Source: a virus
Direction: 5' to 3' (one strand)
IMG/VR virus record: IMGVR_UViG_3300042892_002114
Span: 27,315-91,314 of that record
Length of the DNA stretch: 64,000 nt
In this document: positions 45,647 to 57,993 of the stretch, in pieces
Numbering within the stretch: position 1 is the stretch's first letter
Layout of the letters: each line of letters starts with the position of its first letter
Notes under the pieces: model-generated
Databases searched by the model: none
What the model saw: only the letters and a program-made list of their open reading frames with translations
Told to the model about the DNA's origin: nothing
Position numbers and translations under genes: made by a program

Positions 45647-48076
45647 TTATCCTACGCAAGATGGCGAGCCAGCGCCCCGTACACATGCGGTGTGGGCATT
45701 TGCTCCGCCCGTTGTCAAATAACTCGTATCGTCTTCAGTACCAACAACGGGTCCGACAACATAACTTTCGGATGCTCCATCGCACCTAGTATATACTCCA
45801 GTATTGATACTATAATTACTATACGAGTATACAGGATTTTCCGGGTCGCTGTCGTCATACACCTTTGTTTGCGACCAAACCCAAGTTTGTTCGTGACACG
45901 GTATTGCTGTTGGCGTTGGTTCTGGTTCAGTTGGCGTCGGTTCTGGTTCAGTTGGCGTTGGCGCTGGTTCAGTTGGCGTTGGCGCTGGTTCAGTTGCCGT
46001 TGGCGTTGGCGCTGGTTCAGTTGCCGTTGGCGTTGGCGCTGGTTCAGTTGCCGTTGGCGTTGGCGCTGGTTCAGTTGCCGTTGGAGTTGGTGTCGGCTGC
46101 GGTGTTGCCGTTGGCGTTGGTGTCGGCTGCGGTGTTGCCGTTGGAGTCGGCGTCGGTGTCGGTGTCGGCGTTGGCGTTGGTGCACCGGTCCCAAAATTGT
46201 AAGTTTGTTCTGCACTTAGATAAGTTCCAGTATTAGTTGTAACGCTTGCTCTGGCTCTGATCCAATACGGAGGAGTTGCTACTATTCCAGATTGAGCATT
46301 TGTAACAAGCAAGTAATCGCTGTTTGCGCCTTCATTACTTGGAGGAGCGCCATTTGTTCCAATTGTAACATATCCCGCACCGGCAAGACCGGCTTCCGAT
46401 GCGGCGGACTTCAATTGTATTGTATGTGAACTAAATGTTTGTGAGTATGCATATGCCGAAGAATGTACGTCAAATCTGCCAGGAGAGGATTCTATTATAA
46501 ATCCAACATCTACGAATGGTGTCAGTGATGTAGCCGTTGGGGTAGGAATTGGCGTTGCCGTTGGCGTTGGCATCGGTGTTGCTGTTGGTCCAACGCTGGT
46601 TGCCGTCGGCGCTGGCATCGGTGTTGCTGTTGGTCCAACGCTGGTTGCCGTTGGCGTTGGTGTCGGTGTTGCTGTTGGTCCAACGCCGGTTGCCGTTGGC
46701 GTTGGTGTCGGTGTTGCTGTTGGTCCAACGCCGGTTGCCGTTGGCGTTGGTGTCGGTGTTGCCGTTGCCGTTGGTGTTGGCGTGGGTGTTGGAGTCGGTG
46801 TTGCTGTTGCCGTCGGTGTTGGCGTAGGCGGTACATACAACACCGCACCATATTCACTCACATATCCTTCAAAACTAAATGTGCATGGTGCCGCACTTGA
46901 ACTATAAAACACATAAATTGATTTATCTGTGTGTGCTACACCCAATTCCAATAATTGCAGATTGTTTCTGCTGTATTTTGCATCTGTCAATGGAACTCTA
47001 TTATTGTTCCATGAATGTATTCCACTTGCGCCAACTGGTGCAACAGATGATGTTGATCCAATTGACAACAATGGAGAACCAGTTGAATAAACAAATGCAT
47101 CTGTCAAAACATAATTATCTGGAAGAATATCTCTTTTGTTTCCATTACCAAGATAACTAGATGTTCCATCACTCTTGAATCTCAAACTAAATTCTTTATC
47201 TGGATTGCTTGCTCTTGCGCCAGACACTGGTAATAAAATATGATTTGTTCCTTTTGAATCCAACCATTGAGTTGGTCCCGGATTTAAATTTGGAGAAGTA
47301 TAAGAAGCAATCAATGTTGTATCTGAATTATTTACACCACTATAAAACATGCTTTTAATTTTGTTGGCGGTCAATTCTGTGTTGAATACATGAGCTTCAT
47401 AAATTGTACAATCAATATTGAATGCAGTAGAATGTCCATTGCCCATAACCACATATGATGATGAAATTGGTGTAGCAGAACTATATTGTGTACCAATCAA
47501 TGTGCTGTTCAAATACAACTTCAAAGTGCCAGAAGAATCTCTGGTTAGAACTGCTTCAAAAACTTTGTCTTCGTAATCACACATAAAATTCGTCACTGGG
47601 ATTTTCCCCTCAGTAATTCCATCGTATGTATAACCAATCAAATCATTATTTTCCATTCCAATATATGCAGTTTGGCTACCGGACACAAGTGTTTCTTTAG
47701 ATTCTCCTATACCGAAAATTGCACGAAATACTGGTGGATCGGGGTACATGGAAGAAGGAATAAATGCACGAACCATCAAACTAAATTCTGTTCCAACTTC
47801 TGGAAATTCTCCATAACAACGCAAATTCAAATCTGATATTGGTGCAATGTTTTGGTCAAACACAAGTCCATTGGCCGATTGATAGCCATGCATTGGCGTG
47901 AACACTTCCAAGAATCCACCAGATACAACATATTTGGCCAAATCACCGGCAGAAATTGCTTTGGTTTCTCCGGTCGGAGATGTGTTTTCAGACACATCCA
48001 CTATAGGAATCAAATCGCCATAAACAAGCTGGCTACCACTTACTCTGCGAAGTTGAGATGTTTTCTGATTAGACAT
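45647..48076 (-). CDS. Tail fibre/adhesin with LamG-like domain and Pro-Thr repeat linkers
   Basis: 809 residues. N-terminus [20 protein letters not shown] is a typical virion-attachment segment (SQLR...[11 protein letters not shown]). Residues ~75-260 form a LamG/concanavalin-like fold ([32 protein letters not shown]). Then come two Pro-Thr-rich linkers flanking a small beta domain ([20 protein letters not shown]). The C-terminal ~80 residues contain paired Cys ([19 protein letters not shown]) and probably form the distal receptor-binding tip. Likely host-recognition protein. The linkers are attractive O-glycosylation sites. Confidence 0.75.
45906..46186. repeat. 27-bp tandem repeat tract coding EPAPTPTAT units
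   Basis: About four near-identical 27-bp units followed by degenerate ones code for EPAPTPTAT and shorter [14 protein letters not shown] units in the fibre's distal linker. Slippage could change the linker length. Confidence 0.75.
46532..46830. repeat. 45-bp tandem repeat tract coding [15 protein letters not shown] units
   Basis: Roughly four 45-bp units, differing at a few codons (TGVG or TSVG, TPTP or MPAP), then simple PT repeats, code for the proximal linker of the same fibre. Confidence 0.75.
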
Positions 48077-48088
48077 AGTATCTTTTCA

Positions 48089-48098
48089 TTATAAATAT
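48089..48098 (-). promoter_or_regulatory. ATATTTAT element upstream of the fibre gene
   Basis: Coding-strand ATATTTATAA lies 12 nt upstream of ATG 48076; a purine-rich stretch (GAAAAGA) sits between. Confidence 0.4.
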
Positions 48099-48155
48099 CA
48101 ATCTATTTGAAAAATATATATCAATCTGCCCCTTTTATAACAAGAACTTTTTATA

Positions 48156-48938
48156 TTACCCAAGTCTTTTTATCTTTTTTACAATAAACTTAGTCAATGC
48201 ACTGCGAAGAATGTCATCATCTGTAAATTCAAATGTATATATGCCATTTTCTTTGCTGTCATCATCATTGAACAGATTGAATATATCTCTGAAACCAGAC
48301 CTTGTTCCAATGTCAGATTGCTGCGGATCTCCGCACATAAATACTTTACAAAATTCTCCAGTTCTTGTCATCATGGTGATCAATTCTTTCTGTGTGCAAT
48401 TCTGCAATTCATCTCCCACCACAGCTTTTGCATTCCAGTTTAATCCTCTCAAATATCCAATTGGCAATCCTTCTACTCTGTTTTCTTTTATCAAATATTG
48501 AATATCTTCTTTTGGCAGAAGTTCATCCATTTTGTCTATCAGTGGTCGTTTGAACGGAGATAATTTGTCGTCGGCTTCACCTGGCAATGTTCCCATTTTA
48601 ACATCCGCACTTTCAACAATACTTCTTACATAAAGTATGTCGCTAACTTTTTTCTCATTCATGAGCATCAATGATGCTAGTACAGACAAATATGTTTTTG
48701 TAGAACCTGCTGGACCAGATATGAGCAACAGTTTTACTTTACGATCCATTGCCAACTCAATGAAAGCTTTCTGCTTCGGAGTAAGTTCTCTGTGCAATAT
48801 GGTTAAATAATGATCTATTTTATTTCTTTGATGAACAACTGGACTTTTATCTTTTGCGGGTTGTTGAGACAAAGATAATGTTTGGCTTGGTGCATTATTT
48901 TTCTTTTTGTTGTTGTTCAGTCGTTTTTGTTTTGACAT
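48156..48938 (-). CDS. phoH: PhoH-like ATPase
   Basis: 260 residues. Walker A ISGPAGSTKT near 75, the PhoH block VRSIVESADVKMGTLPGEADD, Walker B AVVGDELQN and sensor CGDPQQSD. A basic low-complexity N-terminus (RLNNNKKKNN) precedes the domain. PhoH-like genes are widespread in T4-like marine phages; the function may concern RNA or ribosome metabolism. It ends just before the gene at 48940, which is probably co-transcribed. Confidence 0.92.
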   Translation of the reverse strand: MSKQKRLNNNKKKNNAPSQTLSLSQQPAKDKSPVVHQRNKIDHYLTILHRELTPKQKAFIELAMDRKVKLLLISGPAGSTKTYLSVLASLMLMNEKKVSDILYVRSIVESADVKMGTLPGEADDKLSPFKRPLIDKMDELLPKEDIQYLIKENRVEGLPIGYLRGLNWNAKAVVGDELQNCTQKELITMMTRTGEFCKVFMCGDPQQSDIGTRSGFRDIFNLFNDDDSKENGIYTFEFTDDDILRSALTKFIVKKIKRLG

Positions 48939-48939
48939 A

Positions 48940-49311
48940 TTATTTTTTTATTTTTTTGTATGTGAATATAGTACTCAATTTATCCAATTTACTTATAATT
49001 TTTTTAATTCTTGCACAAATTTGAAACTGTTGATGGTCCATACTGAACTCAAAGACAGTTTCTAAACTTTCCTTGAAATCTTTTCTTTGCAAGACCACCA
49101 CAAAACTTGAATTTTTAAAACAGAATAATTCTATTCCGCCAAGTTTGTTTGATATAGCATACTCTATTGTATTTACAATATTGATATTTATTTCTTTTCT
49201 GTTTTCCAGAACATACTTTTCCATTTCGGAATTATCACAGGGAAGTTCAACAACTTCATATTTTGAATTTAAAACTTTATTAGACTTCTTTTTACGCGGA
49301 GTCTTTTTCAT
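48940..49311 (-). CDS. Hypothetical protein, 123 residues
   Basis: Basic N-terminus (KKTPRKKKSNKVLNSKYEVV) and a compact alpha/beta body (IELFCFKNSSFVVVLQRKDF). The N-terminal end overlaps the metallopeptidase gene by 20 nt. No family recognised; co-expression with phoH is likely. Confidence 0.6.
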   Translation of the reverse strand: MKKTPRKKKSNKVLNSKYEVVELPCDNSEMEKYVLENRKEININIVNTIEYAISNKLGGIELFCFKNSSFVVVLQRKDFKESLETVFEFSMDHQQFQICARIKKIISKLDKLSTIFTYKKIKK

Positions 49312-49669
49312 ATACTGAAGATAAATATATCTCTAGCCATGCTTTACCCATCATATTCACAAATTTTTCGTTCTGAGAAAGTTTTAGTTCTCCTGTAGAA
49401 TCTAATATAATATGCACAACTTCGTGAAAGAATGTTTCTATCATTGTTTCTTCTGTAATGATTAACTTTCGTTCCACCATTTTGCCGTCTTCTTTATATC
49501 GTTTTGTTACTTCTCCCAAATCTTGAATTTGAATCAACTTCAAATCTTCGTCCGCGTTTCCATAACAATCCTCGGTTTCAAACAAATCTTTTTTTATAAC
49601 AACGGTATATTTGTGTCCAAGTAGTGTAAATTCTTTCGGAATATTGATTTTTTTAATTGGATTCAGCAC
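49292..49669 (-). CDS. Small zinc metallopeptidase-like protein (HExxH)
   Basis: 125 residues. ETFFHEVVHIILD contains HExxH near residue 82, and NEKFVNMMGKAW holds the downstream acid that could be the third ligand. Small phage metallopeptidases of this plan exist, with unknown substrates. No signal peptide, so it acts in the cytoplasm. Confidence 0.65.
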   Translation of the reverse strand: MLNPIKKINIPKEFTLLGHKYTVVIKKDLFETEDCYGNADEDLKLIQIQDLGEVTKRYKEDGKMVERKLIITEETMIETFFHEVVHIILDSTGELKLSQNEKFVNMMGKAWLEIYLSSVYEKDSA

Positions 49670-49683
49670 TACATATAAGTATC

Positions 49684-49803
49684 ATGGAAAATAGAAAAGA
49701 ACCTAATTTAGTTGATAAAGCAAGAAGTTTAGGAACTGCTGTAACCATTATATACACTTCATCAAAAGTTTATAATAATAAGTATAATCCATTCTGCGCT
49801 TAA
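49684..49803 (+). CDS. Possible plus-strand mini-gene, 40 residues
   Basis: ATG 49684 to TAA 49801-49803 opposes the flanking minus-strand genes and overlaps the end of one. The product (MENRKEPNLVDKARSLGTAV...) looks protein-like but has no family, SD or convincing promoter. It may be a chance frame. Confidence 0.25.
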   Translation: MENRKEPNLVDKARSLGTAVTIIYTSSKVYNNKYNPFCA

Positions 49804-50203
49804 CACTGCCAGATTTGTGCTTGAATACACTTTTTATAGTAACAAAATCGTCTCCAATTTTTTCTGTATCAAACATAGTTGACAGATATTCATTCACCGC
49901 AATATCTTGTGATATGTTTGACCATTCTCTGTCATGCTTTGGATTAATTAGCCAATGACCAAACATAACATGACACATTTCATGGCAGATAATAAATACT
50001 TTTTTTGTATCATCACATTTCTTCCAAAAATTTGGATTGGCAACAATTCTAAAATTATTGTTGTGTATTTCTAACTCAACACTTTCAGCATCTTTGTTAA
50101 ATACCATATGCTCAAATGTTCTCCACATACCATCAAACAATGGATTGACGCACAAAAGTTGCATTGACAACCAACCAAAATCTTTCTTGTTCAATTTTTT
50201 CAT
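49748..50203 (-). CDS. Metallopeptidase-like protein of the DUF2201 N-terminal type
   Basis: 151 residues. VFIICHEMCHVMFGH supplies HExxH, and NISQDIAVNEYL is the following helix typical of the DUF2201 metallopeptidase-like domain. The C-terminal von Willebrand-type half of DUF2201 proteins is missing, so this is a short phage version. It starts directly after a terminator, so it needs its own initiation signal, which is not obvious. Confidence 0.7.
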   Translation of the reverse strand: MKKLNKKDFGWLSMQLLCVNPLFDGMWRTFEHMVFNKDAESVELEIHNNNFRIVANPNFWKKCDDTKKVFIICHEMCHVMFGHWLINPKHDREWSNISQDIAVNEYLSTMFDTEKIGDDFVTIKSVFKHKSGSVKRRMDYTYYYKLLMKCI

Positions 50204-50204
50204 A

Positions 50205-50232
50205 AATAAAAAAGGGGAGCATATGCTCCCCT
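50205..50232 (-). terminator. Rho-independent terminator of the 50.2-50.8 kb small-gene operon
   Basis: 8-bp stem (50213-50220 with 50225-50232), ATAT loop, then a run of seven T on the minus strand. Confidence 0.85.
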
Positions 50233-50237
50233 ATATT

Positions 50238-50441
50238 TTATCGGCTACGGCGAGCCTTTTTCTTGGGCCTCTCGGTCTTGGTGGCAACATACTTCTCACC
50301 AGCAGACTTTCTGCGTGCTGCATTTACCCACGAGTTGCGCGTCTTGCGACTAGCAAACTCGTATGTTTTACCTTCTGCCAGCAGACTTTTCACCTCTTCC
50401 TCGGAGGTTGCCAGCAGGATTTTTTGCTTTAGTCCAGTCAT
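50238..50441 (-). CDS. Small basic protein, 67 residues
   Basis: Helical N-terminus (KILLATSEEEVKSLLAEGKT) and a strongly basic tail (KTERPKKKARRSR) that could bind nucleic acid. Last gene before the terminator of an early-type operon. No family recognised. Confidence 0.6.
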   Translation of the reverse strand: MTGLKQKILLATSEEEVKSLLAEGKTYEFASRKTRNSWVNAARRKSAGEKYVATKTERPKKKARRSR

Positions 50442-50444
50442 AAA

Positions 50445-50639
50445 TTAACGACGATAGTTGAGTTGACGAACATCAAGCTTGCTACCATCTGGATTGCGCT
50501 TGATAATACCCGCCCAATACTCATATTCCCTTTGGGCATCTAGCTTGGAGTCATACTCCGAATCGCTTACGCGGATGCCGTTCCGAAAAATGGCATACAT
50601 TGCTGGTTCAGTTTGATTGTCAACTGTGTTATTTTGCAT
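50445..50639 (-). CDS. Small protein, 64 residues
   Basis: Contains AMYAIFRNGIRVSDSEYDSK then a charged helix (LDAQREYEYWAGIIKRNPDG). Compact alpha/beta, unknown family. It lies 3 nt upstream of the basic 67-residue gene. Confidence 0.6.
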   Translation of the reverse strand: MQNNTVDNQTEPAMYAIFRNGIRVSDSEYDSKLDAQREYEYWAGIIKRNPDGSKLDVRQLNYRR

Positions 50640-50651
50640 ACTTTTTGTTTT

Positions 50652-50840
50652 TTAGTCGTTATACTGAGAATAGGCATAACTGTCGAGCATAGACAGTTCG
50701 TCTGTAATATCATGAATTGTGGGCTCAATCATGGCTGGTAGCCCAACCATCTTAACAGGTTGTTCAGTGTCCACAGAAACATTGTTTTTGGGACGACCAA
50801 CGCCGCGAGTTTGTTTAGTTGTATTGGATGTTTTATTCAT
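50652..50840 (-). CDS. Small protein with AT-hook-like motif, 62 residues
   Basis: Start at ATG 50840 is fixed by the promoter 7 nt upstream; a longer frame would translate the promoter. TRGVGRPK is an AT-hook-like minor-groove motif. The rest is acidic (PTIHDITDELSMLDSY). Possibly a DNA-binding takeover protein. Confidence 0.6.
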   Translation of the reverse strand: MNKTSNTTKQTRGVGRPKNNVSVDTEQPVKMVGLPAMIEPTIHDITDELSMLDSYAYSQYND

Positions 50841-50847
50841 CTTGTAT

Positions 50848-50876
50848 ATACTGGCTGCACATTTAATAAAAGTCAA
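50848..50876 (-). promoter_or_regulatory. Leaderless-type early promoter of the 50.2-50.8 kb operon
   Basis: TTGACT (50876-50871), 17-nt spacer, CAGTAT (50853-50848), 7 nt to ATG 50840. An isolated copy of the right-end module. Bases 50877-51058 hold nothing recognisable. Confidence 0.75.
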
Positions 50877-51058
50877 CCACTTTTTTCGTAAATATACTAT
50901 TTATAATAACCCCTCATGAAAAATAGCATATACACATTTTTTGATAGAATGAGGCACGCTGGTATGCATTGTTTGTGCATAATAAAATGTATAAGATTGA
51001 GAAGAAATCCTGTGTTTTATATCAAAGGATTGTGTCGTACATTATTTACTATAAAGTA

Positions 51059-52456
51059 TTAACAAGCGCGAGATGACGTGGCGGCGGTTCCTGTATACTG
51101 GGTTGTTATCGCAACTCCGCATGCAACAGAATACACTTTTCCATTTGGAGTTCCGGACGTGCTACTTGCGTTTCTGGTTACACCATATGGGTCGGTATAA
51201 TCAAAATTGTAATTACCCTGCTGATTACAAGTTGCATCAATCTGACGCGAATCCAATCTTGGGTCCGATGTTGATGAACACGCGGAAGTTCTCAAATTTG
51301 TTCCATACACAAGACGAAGTGAATTTTGAACAATACAAACTCCGTTAACAGCGGTGGTGTATGGAGTTCCAGTTGAAGAAACAATCGTCGGTCCTCCTCC
51401 GGAATTCTCCCACGATGCAGATACTCGACCAACCGAATCATAGTCCATCCATATTCGTTGACTTGGAACCGGAGTGGCCGTTGGCGTCGGTGTAGGCGTT
51501 GCTGTTGGTGTCGGCGTAGGAGTTGCCGTTGGTGTGGGAGTCGGCGTTGGGGTTGGTCCGGTTGGTGTTGGCGTTGGTGTTGGCGTTGGACCGGTTGCTG
51601 TTGGAGTTGGTGTCGGCGTTGCTGTTGGCGTTGGTGTTGGTGTCGGAGTGGACGTTGGCGTTGCTGTTGGCGTCGGAGTTGGTGCGGCAACACAATCAAC
51701 AACATTTTCTGGATCAAATGAAAATACATCATTATAACTCACAACTTCCAACAAATCAACACATGGAAATGCTCCAGACCCCGTTAAAGATTGAGTTGTA
51801 ACTCCGTTGATAATTTCACTGATATTATCAGATCCACCCGTACTAAGATTTCTGGTGTGATATTGATAATACCCGGATGCATTAAAAACTTTTAAATTTG
51901 TTGAGTATGAACCAGAACGGTATGAAAATAATTGTGCTTTTTTCAAACCATTTCCAGTTACTTTTGTCACTCTCATACGCACAGTATCCGGTATATTAGT
52001 TGTACGCATATATGAAAGAATATATGTTCCGGATTGGAAGTTTGATGTGATATTATAAGATTGTCCAGTTGTCAATGTTGCTGCTACTACATTTCCATTA
52101 AAAACCACAGGATCGAGTGTTGTTGCAGCACGATCCCAATCAAGTGTATATGCTGTTTGTGATTGCGAGTCTATTCGCCAAACCAACTTTACTTCATTAC
52201 CATAGCATTTTGTTGAACCAGTGATTTGTATTTCATTGCAAGAAAACGATGCGGACATGTTTGCATCAACTGTTGGTGTTGGTGTTGGCGTTGGTGTTGG
52301 TGTTACATCTGAAACATACGGATCTCCCCAGCCAATATTGCGAGAATCAAATTCTTGTTTTAGATAAGCAAGTCCTTCGTCGGTGCCAATAATTTCTCCA
52401 AGTTTTCCAAATACGCTTCCCGATGGTGTCCCGTGTGATGCAATTGTGTTAGACAT
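51059..52456 (-). CDS. Fibre/adhesin-like protein with Pro-Thr linkers
   Basis: 465 residues from ATG 52456, because from there the N-terminus ([20 protein letters not shown]) aligns with the start of the 52449-53438 product; the 60 extra upstream codons overlap that gene. Layout: attachment module (1-55), short PT linker, beta domain (~70-245; [20 protein letters not shown]), long PT linker (~255-325), C-terminal Cys-containing domain ([18 protein letters not shown]). Probably a receptor-binding or decoration protein. Confidence 0.65.
51475..51690. repeat. Pro-Thr-coding repeat tract
   Basis: Degenerate GTTGGYGTTGG-type repeats code [10 protein letters not shown] and GPTPTPTPT units of the linker in the 51059-52456 gene. 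Confidence 0.7.
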
Positions 52457-53438
52457 AAATTGTGATATAACCATTGCCGGTTGCCAAACTTTCTTGGTTT
52501 CCTGTCTCATATACCCCACCGCCGCTGCTTCCGCCTCGTATGAAGGAAATTCCCACGTCACCACCTCCCGCACCACCACCACCTTGGCCGGGACCATATG
52601 TGTTGGTATTATGATTCTGAGGACCGGAAGGACCATCTATTGCAATAAACAATATATCTTGCCACTCACCGTATGACGGCCCGACTGGACCGGCGTTACT
52701 AGAGCCACCACCTCCACCGCCACCACCCACACCGATTTGTAATTCATCAGACCCATTTAAAATCACCGAAGCTCCACCTCCACCACCCCCGCCAGTTGAA
52801 AATGCCTCTCCCATAGCAGCAACTCCACCACGCCCACCGCTGTAATACCCAGCACCGGGCTCTCCGCCCTCCCATGCAAAATACCCAACACTACCACCCA
52901 CGTTTCCTGGAATTAATTTATATGTTCCATCCAAACCGAAACCTCCTGAGAATCGCGACCCTTTTCCTCCAACTCCACCGGAATATGTCGAATCTCCACC
53001 AGCGCCCCCCGCAGCGCCGTTGATATCAATATACACGTTAAACGCACCCACCGCCGGAGAAATTGTCCACGTGTTATAACCAGATACAGTCAAAGGTCCA
53101 TCCACATCCAAGTTCCATGTTGTTTTTGATCCTATTGCGGGTGATATATTCAACACTCTTTGTCCTGATGTCGGAGTAGGGGTTGGTGTCGGACCTCCTC
53201 CAGTTGGAGTTGGTGTCGGCGTAGCCGTTGGTGTCGGCGTAGCCGTTGGAGTTGGTGTTGATGTCGGAGTTGGCGTAGGCGTCGGAGTTGGTGCAACATT
53301 ATACGCTCTCCATCCAATATTTGAAGAATCGCCAGATATTTTCACATATTTTAATCCATCGTTCATTTCTATCAATGATCCTATGGTGCCAAAAACTTGA
53401 CCATTTGGATTTCCATGCAGTGGTATTGTTCTTACCAT
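52449..53438 (-). CDS. Glycine-rich adhesin-like tip protein with Pro-Thr linker
   Basis: 329 residues. Residues 1-50 ([29 protein letters not shown]) are the shared attachment module. A PT linker follows, then a ~210-residue Gly-rich domain: [40 protein letters not shown] and [14 protein letters not shown]. Such domains resemble the polyglycine sandwich of phage tail-tip adhesins. It directly precedes the PT-linker gene downstream (8-nt overlap). Likely receptor recognition. Confidence 0.7.
53170..53296. repeat. Pro-Thr-coding repeat tract
   Basis: GTTGGYGT-type repeats code the linker between attachment module and glycine-rich domain of the tip protein. Confidence 0.7.
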
Positions 53439-55483: not shown

Positions 55484-55511
55484 TTGACTTATTATGAAAC
55501 ATGTTCATGAT
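55484..55511 (+). promoter_or_regulatory. Plus-strand promoter of the divergent gene pair
   Basis: TTGACT (55484-55489), 16-nt spacer, CATGAT (55506-55511). A transcript beginning about 7 nt later would reach ATG 55534 first in frame, which helps choose that start. Confidence 0.5.
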
Positions 55512-55533
55512 ATATGCCACAACTAAAAAAGAT

Positions 55534-55875
55534 ATGCTATTTAATTTAGAAACAATCAAACGTAGACTTGATATGCTAAAATTGCCGCCAACGACAGGGC
55601 AAATTATATTAAACAAGTGGCATGCTAGAAAATTTAAAAAGAAATTCAAAATTTCATATCAAGCGTGGATAAATGATGACGCAAGTATTATATCCGAGGA
55701 TGAAGTAGTCGAATGGGAAGCATCCTTTGGATGGAACGATGAATGTTTCGAAGAACTATTTTGTCATATAAAATATGCTAAATGGCGGGGAAATAGATGG
55801 AAATTTACATATAGACCAGAAACCAAAGAATTTCGAAAAGAAATGTTCCAGCGTTGGAGAAATGCCACATATTAA
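55534..55875 (+). CDS. Plus-strand hypothetical protein, basic and Trp-rich
   Basis: 113 residues from ATG 55534. Rich in Lys, Arg and Trp (ILNKWHARKFKKKFKISYQA; IKYAKWRGNRWKFTYRPE), with an acidic middle. No recognised domain. One of two genes on the plus strand. The codon pattern looks real and the protein-like frame is long, yet family and function are unknown. Confidence 0.6.
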   Translation: MLFNLETIKRRLDMLKLPPTTGQIILNKWHARKFKKKFKISYQAWINDDASIISEDEVVEWEASFGWNDECFEELFCHIKYAKWRGNRWKFTYRPETKEFRKEMFQRWRNATY

Positions 55876-55890
55876 AATACACAATATATT

Positions 55891-56187
55891 ATGCCAATAA
55901 ACATGGATATAATCGAAAATAGGCTATATCAGCTTAGATATGAAGAGTATATGTCAAAGCCTAAAAAGAAAACCAAACCTGAAGTATATACTCAATCTCG
56001 GATACAAGAAGAAATATTCTTTAATGACGCATTGTATTTTGATATACACAGAGAACACTCACACGAGTTTTCTGATCTTATGAGAAATGGTTGGCCAGAA
56101 AATCTGTCAAAGGAAAATTTAAAATTACAAAAAATCTATATAAGAAGAAGAGTATATGATATGGGTAGATATGTTATCAAGAACTAA
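55891..56187 (+). CDS. Plus-strand hypothetical protein, 98 residues
   Basis: Charged, helical (IIENRLYQLRYEEYMSKPKK; NLKLQKIYIRRRVYDMGRY). It follows the previous plus gene by 15 nt, so the two form an operon. No family recognised. Ends before the noncoding island. Confidence 0.55.
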   Translation: MPINMDIIENRLYQLRYEEYMSKPKKKTKPEVYTQSRIQEEIFFNDALYFDIHREHSHEFSDLMRNGWPENLSKENLKLQKIYIRRRVYDMGRYVIKN

Positions 56188-56526
56188 CATATAGAATATC
56201 ATATATACAAAAATCCTATAAACAAAAATTAGAAAAATTCTAAATTCAAAAAATAGGGTATAATATCATAAAAGTGTGTATAGGATATATGAAATTTTAA
56301 CTATATGAAAAATACATGCACAACATATGCTTTTCGTATATACGAAAAGTGTATAAGAAAAATTGACCTCGAATAGAGAATGAATATGGACCCCCGTGGG
56401 GGGTGGGGGTTTACCCCACCTAGAAGGCACCAAACACCCCACCTAGAGGGGGGAGGGGTGGGGGGTTAAAGCCACCGTCCCCCCATCCCCCCGTGCGGGG
56501 GTGGCGTGATCCACGCCACCCTCTCG
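56188..56526. other. Noncoding island: AT-rich arm, 20-bp palindrome, then GC-rich hairpin/G-run block
   Basis: About 340 bp with no convincing gene. The first part is AT-rich; 56330-56349 is a perfect palindrome. From about 56390 composition jumps to C/G-rich with G runs of 4-6 (56396-56410, 56446-56467), repeated CCCCACCTAGA, and a perfect 10-bp hairpin (56499-56508 with 56512-56521). It divides the plus-strand pair from the early-gene array. Possible boundary element, terminator complex or origin-like site. Confidence 0.6.
56330..56349. repeat. Perfect 20-bp palindrome
   Basis: CTTTTCGTATATACGAAAAG equals its own reverse complement. There is no T run after it on the plus strand, so a protein-binding site is more likely than a terminator. 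Confidence 0.6.
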
Positions 56527-56799
56527 TCAGACCGTCGGCTCTTGCCAGTAAACCTTGCTGAAGGTCGTGCCCCAAGTGTCGGGACGAACGGCGATGGCCT
56601 TGAAGACCAAGGAGTTGTCGTGGCTCGGGTCAAAGACCTGATAGCCATATACCGGCCCCTTGTTCATGTCGCTGTCGCGCAGTATGTTGACGGCATAGCC
56701 CACCCGCTTGGCCTCCTTGACCAGATTCTTGATGAAGCTGGTGGAGCAGACGCGGGTGAAGGTTGACCGAACAGGAGCAGTGTTGATGGTGGAGTTCAT
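56527..56799 (-). CDS. Early small protein, 90 residues, GC-rich gene
   Basis: Product MNSTINTAPVRSTFTRVCST...; FIKNLVKEAKRVGYAVNIL suggests a small alpha/beta fold. Base composition is clearly more GC-rich than the next genes. Downstream lies the GC-rich hairpin (56499-56521), which may end transcription. No family recognised. Confidence 0.6.
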   Translation of the reverse strand: MNSTINTAPVRSTFTRVCSTSFIKNLVKEAKRVGYAVNILRDSDMNKGPVYGYQVFDPSHDNSLVFKAIAVRPDTWGTTFSKVYWQEPTV

Positions 56800-56806
56800 G
56801 TTCTAA

Positions 56807-56834
56807 ACAATGACGATTATTTATAAAAAGTAAA
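56807..56834 (-). promoter_or_regulatory. Early promoter, TTTACT/CATTGT
   Basis: Spacer 16, -10 CATTGT, 7 nt to ATG 56799. The -35 is poorer than in other copies. Confidence 0.65.
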
Positions 56835-56845
56835 GCACAAAGCAC

Positions 56846-56869
56846 AAAAAAGGGGCTTTTTATTGCCCC
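56846..56869 (-). terminator. Terminator of the 56879-57202 gene
   Basis: Stem GGGGC/GCCCC (56865-56869 with 56852-56856), 8-nt loop, six T on the minus strand. Confidence 0.7.
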
Positions 56870-56878
56870 CTGTTTTAT

Positions 56879-57202
56879 TTAAATGATGCCCGCAACAAGC
56901 ATCCAACTTGGACTACCTTCGCTGTCATAGCCGTCTGGCTCAACTACCTGACCAAGCATTGACTTGGCAACACCATCGTCGCTCCACTTTTCCATGGTCT
57001 TGAGCGAAGGAGCCTTGAACTTAGTGAAGTAGCGTGGCAGACTAGAGCAACGCAGCTTCACTGTCACAGGAACGCCGCCAGCACTGCCACCAGCCAGTGC
57101 GCAAACAGTGCCACCATCCTTGAAGATTACATTTAATTTTGTGCCAACAGGAATAACCAGACCGTTCTTGAACTTGATTTCTTTGTTATTAACGAGGTTC
57201 AT
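56879..57202 (-). CDS. Early small protein, 107 residues
   Basis: N-terminal beta strands (FKNGLVIPVGTKLNVIFKDG) and a Gly-rich turn (ALAGGSAGGVPVTVKL), then KAPSLKTMEKWSDDGVAKS. The alternating strands suggest a small beta-barrel of the kind seen in other phage early proteins. Followed by a terminator, so monocistronic. Confidence 0.6.
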   Translation of the reverse strand: MNLVNNKEIKFKNGLVIPVGTKLNVIFKDGGTVCALAGGSAGGVPVTVKLRCSSLPRYFTKFKAPSLKTMEKWSDDGVAKSMLGQVVEPDGYDSEGSPSWMLVAGII

Positions 57203-57209
57203 GTTATAG

Positions 57210-57237
57210 ATAGTGTCTTACTTTTTATAAATGTCAA
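57210..57237 (-). promoter_or_regulatory. Early promoter, TTGACA/CACTAT
   Basis: Spacer 16, -10 CACTAT, 7 nt to ATG 57202; near-perfect -35. Confidence 0.8.
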
Positions 57238-57500
57238 CCAATTATTTTATCCAACGCGCTGATTGCAAGCAAATGACTTTCTTTACATTGCTTTGCACGC
57301 AGTTGCAAGTGCTCAACACTAACATTCTTATAAAAATTATCTATAATATATTTGTTTTTGTCGCTCACATCTCCGTTGCTAATGTCATGAATGCATTCAG
57401 CACGACTATATTCATAACTGTCATAATCCAAAGTGTCCATTTCCGAAAGTAAAATGTCTTGCAAAGCCCAAGGCAAATCAAAGAATGATGTTGGTTTCAT
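57234..57500 (-). CDS. Early small protein, 88 residues
   Basis: Acidic, helical (FFDLPWALQDILLSEMDTLD; YIIDNFYKNVSVEHLQLRA). AT-rich, unlike the gene downstream. The stop overlaps the next -35 box, showing how tightly the promoters are packed. Function unknown. Confidence 0.6.
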   Translation of the reverse strand: MKPTSFFDLPWALQDILLSEMDTLDYDSYEYSRAECIHDISNGDVSDKNKYIIDNFYKNVSVEHLQLRAKQCKESHLLAISALDKIIG

Positions 57501-57507
57501 GTTCTAA

Positions 57508-57536
57508 ACTATGAGTTAGATTTTATAAAATGTCAA
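57508..57536 (-). promoter_or_regulatory. Early promoter, TTGACA/CATAGT
   Basis: Spacer 17, -10 CATAGT, 7 nt to ATG 57500. Confidence 0.75.
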
Positions 57537-57739
57537 GGATTTTTATGGTCGCCAACCCAGATTCCAATGGGCGACTTGGAACGATCATATGCGCCATTCG
57601 CGCCGATAGGATAAATAAGATCAAGCGCATTTATGCCAGAAAATCGACCAGTTACACCGTTCATAACATCACAGCTAATGTCTCCACCGTGAACTTTCTT
57701 GATGTCGTTGAGTTGCTTGATAAGGTCTTTAAGTTTCAT
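57533..57739 (-). CDS. Early small protein, 68 residues
   Basis: Start at MKLKDLIKQLNDIKKVHGGD, not the longer frame whose first codons are the promoter. The pattern LKDLI-x2-L ... GD ... DVMNGVTG resembles small phage proteins that start with an amphipathic helix followed by strands. Unknown role. Confidence 0.6.
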   Translation of the reverse strand: MKLKDLIKQLNDIKKVHGGDISCDVMNGVTGRFSGINALDLIYPIGANGAYDRSKSPIGIWVGDHKNP

Positions 57740-57746
57740 GTTATAA

Positions 57747-57774
57747 ATACTGACAGAGTTTTTATAAATGTCAA
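57747..57774 (-). promoter_or_regulatory. Early promoter, TTGACA/CAGTAT
   Basis: Model copy: spacer 16 containing TTTATAAAAA, -10 CAGTAT, 7 nt to ATG 57739. Confidence 0.85.
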
Positions 57775-57786
57775 ACCAAATTTCAA

Positions 57787-57993
57787 TCAATCCATACGCT
57801 TAACAATTACTTTAGTTTGTTTCATTATGGATGAAAAAACGACCTGACTCAGTCTTTCGTTCCTCTGAATTTCGCCCAGTGTATTTGGGTTAACAACTCG
57901 TTGTGCTCCCTCTTGGCTAATACCATAACCGTTTGCGGCATAAAATGAACCAAGCAAAATATAGTTTAGAGAATAGACGTAAATTAAGTTCAT
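57787..57993 (-). CDS. Early small protein, 68 residues
   Basis: Start MNLIYVYSLNYILLGSFYAA at ATG 57993. The first 20 residues are hydrophobic and could be a signal peptide or membrane helix. The remainder is polar (GEIQRNERLSQVVFSS). Its -10 (TAGTAT, 58001-58006) overlaps the upstream stop and lacks a good -35, so it may be co-transcribed. Confidence 0.55.
   Translation of the reverse strand: MNLIYVYSLNYILLGSFYAANGYGISQEGAQRVVNPNTLGEIQRNERLSQVVFSSIMKQTKVIVKRMD

Follow-up and report, generated by a model that had tools for sequence, protein, structure and literature searches.

Mitochondrial conserved sequence block II (CSB II) holds split G runs beside AT-rich DNA and is linked to R-loop priming, and phages of the T4 type use several origins as well as recombination, so that any single site need not be essential. 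In the excerpts of PMC6742236, bacterial origins follow a general plan that combines an AT-rich unwinding part with protein-binding repeats; in those of PMC4412123, T4 origins consist of a middle-mode promoter and a downstream DUE. The open-license literature yielded nothing on iterons or conserved intergenic hairpins in a jumbo phage; among the matches listed for "jumbo phage" together with "replication origin", neither term stood in a title or abstract; and the 13-base core string of the element described below was absent from that literature.

A Two-Part Noncoding Element

The window, by which we mean the whole 64,000-nucleotide stretch of viral DNA analyzed, contains at positions 56196 to 56526 a stand-alone, noncoding element of ~330 bp, in which an AT-rich half is joined to a GC-rich half. 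The GC-rich block reported in the original prediction is the second of these halves; the AT-rich half, paired with it at a fixed spacing, had not been recognized as part of the element. The element and its flanks comprise the following features (window coordinates).

56196 to 56526, plus strand: whole conserved element, AT-rich half then GC-rich half, as delimited by the alignment of relatives and by profile matches
56196 to 56387, plus strand: AT-rich half, with 22% GC over 56188-56387 and very low duplex stability
56202 to 56212, plus strand: R1, the outer copy of the direct repeat TATATAYRAAA, in the same orientation as R2
56330 to 56349, no strand: 20-bp palindrome spanning R2, perfect in the window
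56337 to 56347, plus strand: R2, the inner copy of TATATAYRAAA, 81 bp before the core
56388 to 56526, plus strand: GC-rich half, 70.5% GC
56391 to 56413, plus strand: C run followed by G6-T-G5, ahead of the core
56417 to 56445, plus strand: three YACCWA repeats, at 56417, 56428, and 56440 (spacing 11 and 12 bp)
56418 to 56434, plus strand: core ACCTAGAAGGCACCAAA, containing the ACCTAGAAGnCACC-type string conserved in relatives
56448 to 56492, no strand: imperfect 19-nt G/C inverted repeat
56499 to 56521, no strand: perfect 10-bp stem with a 3-base loop
55501 to 56187, plus strand (flank): two ORFs, variable cargo ending at the AT half, absent or different in relatives
56527 to 56799, minus strand (flank): 90-aa ORF ending at the GC half, 57% GC, third-position GC 0.80

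The perfect stem and the palindrome of the original prediction were both confirmed at these positions, the palindrome likewise being perfect, as was the repeated CCCCACCTAGA, which is present at 56414-56424 and again at 56437-56447. The loop of the 10-bp stem (56,508-56,512) reads ATC in the window and GAT in four relatives (L015, L019, L017, and L016), the one being the reverse complement of the other, as if the stem had been flipped.

The element resembles CSB II in that paired G runs interrupted by a single T or A lie beside AT-rich DNA in 8 of the 12 distinct elements known to us, and differs from it in L016, which has one 13-base run, in L058, which has one 6-base run, and in L042 and L161, where C runs replace the G runs before the core. 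These C runs, which perhaps reflect an inversion of the block, weaken an interpretation as a mitochondrial-type polar G run. With oriC, as far as the excerpts of PMC6742236 describe it, the element shares easily melted AT-rich DNA beside conserved direct repeats, in a fixed geometry and in a noncoding gap, but a block of G/C runs takes the place of the usual flanks. The likeness to the T4 R-loop origins oriF and oriG consists of a DUE-like stretch, an adjoining early region, and T4-type genes in the phage; the AT half of the element shows only weak sigma-70-like sites, and, compared with their description in the excerpts of PMC4412123, the element has in addition a GC half with a conserved core. 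Finally, GC-rich stems directly after a stop codon recall an intrinsic terminator, from which the element departs in that its stems lack a T run.

Conservation among Relatives

Absence from relatives had been named as grounds for doubting the block; the element instead recurs in 13 named IMG/VR contigs, which together with the record of the window give 12 distinct sequences, and one of these contigs is 297 kb long. The carriers appear to be a family of uncultured large viruses, which we take from gene content to be phages with bacterial hosts. Each of the 6 records searched holds one full-length copy.

Two IMG/VR motif scans, one for each half, converged on the element with partly shared sets of members. 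Of the 12 stretches that match the core pattern, 10 carry the whole element; the remaining 2 (L044 and L045), both from one different phage, have a core-like string without an AT half and were set aside as chance; in this phage, the core-like CCCACCTAGAAGGCACCTAA lies directly after a helicase-like ORF. The AT-half pattern also gave 12 stretches, 10 with the core 80 to 82 bp further on and 2 judged to be chance (L157 and L158), where the AT string lacks a GC half; L158 lies inside an ORF, and L157 was judged by its sequence alone. The scan with the AT-half pattern brought in 3300049893 and 3300032293 as new members. Among the 13 contigs, the core pattern missed 3300032282, 3300049893, and 3300032293, and the AT pattern missed 3300042318, 3300023184, and 3300034093. 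The core pattern had 0 matches in 84,980 bacterial and archaeal genomes, and INPHARED phages gave no match for positions 55501-57800, the 90-aa protein, the L043 element, or a 579-aa neighbor protein.

A scan with the stem returned six contigs, namely 3300042318, four further relatives, and one chance match (L020), which was set aside before counting and has the stem inside GC-rich DNA that looks coding. The contig 3300042318_000627 is identical to the window over all 10,270 bp fetched. In the four relatives, 56201-56525 aligns as one block at 94.5, 94.5, 93.5, and 89.4% identity, with both flanks exchanged. The scan with the 579-aa neighbor protein led to 8 contigs, and the element is kept in two of them whose proteins are 39-40% identical; another, L039, has no element, but this contig begins 1.7 kb before the gene. 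A 117-aa early protein led to 75 loci, 10 of which hold the element by profile search, including one new member, 3300032282. It is missing from the remaining 65, largely short contigs or relatives at 25-37%, save for a weak layout match in a more distant phage: positions 6300-6660 of L067 hold an AT-rich and then GC-rich gap at the matching place, which reaches a profile score of only 10.6 bits and was not counted. Judging by this layout, L067 is perhaps a far member of the element family. In L060, a 45% relative by the 117-aa protein, no element was seen in the stretch examined.

What is kept among the 12 distinct elements is a set of short motifs in a fixed arrangement. All 12 contain ACCTAGAAGnCACC, a string that also served as a search handle, so that members without it would be missed, and all 12 contain TATATAYRAAA, with a distance from R2 to the core of 80 to 82 bp even though the intervening DNA varies. 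A second TATATAYRAAA in the same orientation lies 177 to 233 bp ahead of the core in 10 of 10 elements (L159 and L161 being outside this count). The first two YACCWA repeats are 11 bp apart in 12/12, and the third lies at 23 or 24 bp in 10/12, the exceptions being L042 and L049. The 20-bp palindrome is perfect only in the window among the aligned sequences and is lost in distant relatives; we therefore judged it incidental and rejected it as a functional core. A short peptide on the plus strand with the C terminus HLE(D/G)T* was also rejected, because by eye its frame is open in some relatives but closed in L049 and the lineage of the window.

In the very distant L061 of 3300002220, nothing matches the window better at the nucleotide level than the element (118 bits versus 50), whereas coding DNA outscores it in the other six of the seven distant stretches compared (six contigs). 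Between the window and the 297-kb record, the element is 90.8% identical against a gene median of 95.5% (28 of 73 genes aligning over more than 80%), which is not exceptional.

Composition and Melting

The description of the ~130-bp block as exceptional in an AT-rich genome is borne out by its composition. Positions 56388-56526 are 70.5% GC, against 37.0% for the whole window, and the GC peak of the 64-kb sequence at a 130-bp scale, which starts at 56392, has a GC fraction of 0.708 where the maximum of 30 dinucleotide shuffles is 0.577. The G runs of the original prediction hold up as well, with 8 of the window's 17 G/C runs of at least 5 bases falling within the 139 bp of the GC half; since the total of 17 is below the 22 to 34 of 10 shuffles, it is the clustering that is unusual. 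Perfect stems of at least 10 bp with loops of 0 to 8 bases number 7 in the window and 0 to 2 in 10 shuffles. The GC half is the 130-bp GC maximum both in the 297-kb record (G003) and in the window's own 91,314-base virus record (G000), is tied first in G006, and is second in G010. Moreover, the contrast between AT-rich and GC-rich DNA at the element is the largest in the window (0.50, the next being 0.30) and in G003 (0.57, the next being 0.36).

The least stable 150 bp of the window, of G000 (91 kb), and of G003 (297 kb) lie in or overlap the AT half, and the window's minimum starts within the preceding ORF. In relatives, the 150-bp stability minimum overlaps the AT half in 8 of 10 stretches, and the AT half is second in the other 2. 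At 150 bp it is second in G010 and outside the first four in G006, where it is third at 200 bp. An easily melted AT-rich stretch, as an origin would have, is thus present, but its prominence depends on window size: in the window, the AT half ranks first at 100 to 250 bp and fifth at 60 bp, and in G003 it ranks first at 150 and 200 bp, fifth at 100 and 250 bp, and outside the first six at 60 bp, with only a slight lead at 150 bp (−1.032 versus −1.034).

Genomic Position and Flanking Genes

The element sits between a cluster of small early-type genes, which has promoter-like leaders, and the structural genes. All 29 window ORFs of at least 200 aa are on the minus strand, and no tRNA was found in the window. 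The block had been said to divide divergent gene blocks; on the contrary, the plus-strand ORFs 55501-55875 and 55891-56187 and the minus-strand ORF 56527-56799 all end toward it, and the flanking genes are convergent. Genes converge on the element in 5 of the 12 distinct sequences (the window, L017, L042, L053, and L159). In 10 of the 12, a small ORF has its stop at the GC-half boundary; in the other two, L042 and L161, gaps of 167 and 77 bp, respectively, lie between.

The flanks themselves are variable. The AT side in 3300027770 carries a sulfotransferase-like gene (Pfam) and a 354-aa ORF without a Pfam match, and in 3300042895 and 3300042342 the blocks on that side are only 33 bp apart. The 90-aa ORF looks recently acquired, its third-position GC being 0.80 in a genome that is AT-rich; the four relatives have another ORF on this side, and BLASTP gave no alignment between the 90-aa protein and the ORF at that place in L016. 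Its one IMG/VR relative is identical and lies in 3300042318. Several proteins with long Thr-Pro repeats (TPTPTPTA) are encoded at 45,647-53,438 of the window and occur near the element in relatives too.

Between 56,800 and 64,000, a repeated leader (TTTATAAAA ... ATG) precedes many small minus-strand early-type ORFs; its copies are ~88-97% alike and cluster in G003 at 200-210 kb. A separate motif, TAGGTACCCC, has 13 copies in 3 of the 9 records searched, with 13/13 on the gene strand and 0 for the reversed control: in G003 at 184,227-186,297 (L127, L130, L133, and L136), in G006 (L126, L129, L132, and L135), and in G010 (L128, L131, L134, and L137). The three records are those with an SSB-like gene (Pfam SSB), and in each of them one copy lies ~107-135 bp upstream of it. 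This motif may be a phage regulatory sequence related to the ACCTA/TAGGT core of the element.

Strand Skew

The GC-skew analysis proposed in the original prediction had a mixed outcome, with a switch near the element in three records that turned out to follow coding sense. G003, G006, and G010 show a sign reversal of the skew near the element at fourfold-degenerate sites of main-direction genes, and the purine change point falls within ~4 kb of the element (45 kb on either side, repeat-rich genes excluded; permutation p ≤ 0.0004). In G000, which has only 6 upstream genes, the change is not significant (p 0.16-0.24). The GC step that G003 has at the element is unexceptional, as 48 of 258 positions have one as large at 40 kb, and the whole-contig GC skew of G003 (297 kb) shows no switch.

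Read in their own coding sense, upstream minus-strand ORFs, some of which may not be genes, have R-Y skews of −0.01, −0.18, −0.31, and −0.35 (18, 13, 14, and 3 ORFs, respectively), and intergenic DNA has an R-Y skew of −0.02 to 0.05, with a slight G excess downstream (GC skew 0.02-0.13). Because of this minus-strand and intergenic control, the purine-skew switch is seen to follow coding sense and not the physical strand. It mainly follows gene class; the switch, which had first looked positive for an origin, is thereby left equivocal on that point, and it mildly favors an early/late boundary.

A Possible Replication Initiation Site or Transcription Boundary

Our best guess, which we hold tentatively, is that the element is a replication initiation site. 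A phage protein or transcription complex would bind the YACCWA core and the TATATAYRAAA repeats at their fixed geometry, the bound complex would melt the AT half, and phage DNA replication would start there. Several observations point this way: (i) the element is a sequence-specific, two-part module with a fixed 80-82 bp spacing; (ii) it is not tied to a neighbor gene, both flanks being exchanged; (iii) a single full copy per record combines a melting extreme with an adjoining GC maximum and AT repeats in one orientation; and (iv) it has direct repeats that are candidate protein-binding sites, with at least two TATATAYRAAA copies in 10/10 elements and YACCWA in 12/12. Against an origin we count that only 10 of the 75 loci found through the 117-aa early protein hold the element, that skew lends it no clear backing, that the melting rank shifts with window size, and that T4-type phages need not rely on a single site. 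A boundary between early and late transcription comes close behind in likelihood, and the two readings are not mutually exclusive. In this possible alternative, the GC half would end transcription of the small genes, through its stems or a bound protein, and the AT half would carry the regulatory sites of the next block. The small ORFs that stop at the GC-half edge, the convergent genes in 5 of 12 elements, and the coding-sense shift in codon-site composition at the element all agree with a boundary, as do the leader motifs of G003, where 16 of the 48 matches lie on the gene strand at 200-210 kb, in a run ending at the element. The small genes of L042 and L161, however, end at a distance from the GC half, which contains no intrinsic terminator, given that no T run follows its stems; the single terminator-like site in the element is at the palindrome, and 11 such sites in the 16-kb region compare with 12.1 expected. 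Further, the sigma-70-like sites of the AT half are weak, and a plain terminator needs no sequence-conserved core 81 bp from an AT repeat. We rejected a general promoter role for the AT motif: the 297-kb record holds GTATATATGAAA just once, although the looser TATATAYRAAA has 21 matches there.

The origin and the transcription barrier of the original prediction stand as the leading readings; the G-quadruplex element that it also proposed does not. A strict G-quadruplex (four runs of at least 3 G, loops 1-7) is absent from both strands of the window and from 4 others of the 12 distinct elements, and the 7 that have one carry it on the minus strand (6) or the plus strand (1), so that it is common but neither conserved nor strand-consistent, and we rejected it as the conserved feature. 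A noncoding RNA gene or mRNA structure is improbable. The window sequence folds better than its shuffles (z −5.1 on the plus strand and −3.2 on the minus strand), and inspection by eye shows G-U pairs retained in the plus-strand palindrome stem of close relatives; but across 10 elements the z-scores run from −3.4 to +0.2 (plus) and from −3.6 to −0.5 (minus) with differing folds, no Rfam 15 family reaches its gathering score in the whole window, and a relaxed Rfam search with the window element and L047 gave only subthreshold matches. Among 8 aligned sequences (L017, L042, L159, and L161 being outside), both partners differ in 3 of the 31 predicted pairs, with an unfavorable covariation term of +1.58, on which result we rejected a conserved RNA fold. 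We consider it somewhat more doubtful still that the element is a recombination hot spot or an anchor for the exchange of cargo genes, which would account for the differing cargo on both sides among close relatives and for the partial AT-half copies beside the element in several of them, but not for a conserved two-part sequence with fixed spacing, in which no recombinase site was recognized. Single-copy, conserved, stem-rich noncoding DNA could also be a packaging (pac/cos) site, yet this is very unlikely: the terminase large subunit lies ~58-63 kb away in all 3 records that have both, 2 of the 5 records lacking a terminase match, and the element is thus neither in nor beside terminase genes. 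An assembly artifact, named at the outset as a reason for doubt, or a chance composition has a negligible probability, given that 13 named contigs share the element, that its GC content and the stem count exceed those of shuffles, and that 10,270 bp are identical in a second IMG dataset (3300042318), which may share the window's site.

Significance

Taken further, the element might represent a new class of large-phage origin, a proposal that we regard as rather unlikely, in which a dedicated initiator would grip YACCWA sites 11 bp apart together with an AT repeat 80-82 bp away, the GC block would anchor the melting of DNA that is among the genome's least stable, and firing would also separate early from late transcription. 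As a marker, the element allows further members to be found from sequence alone. A compact 330-bp element, in a lineage with a 297-kb member, offers a test object for how replication starts, or how the early/late switch is made, in large phages.
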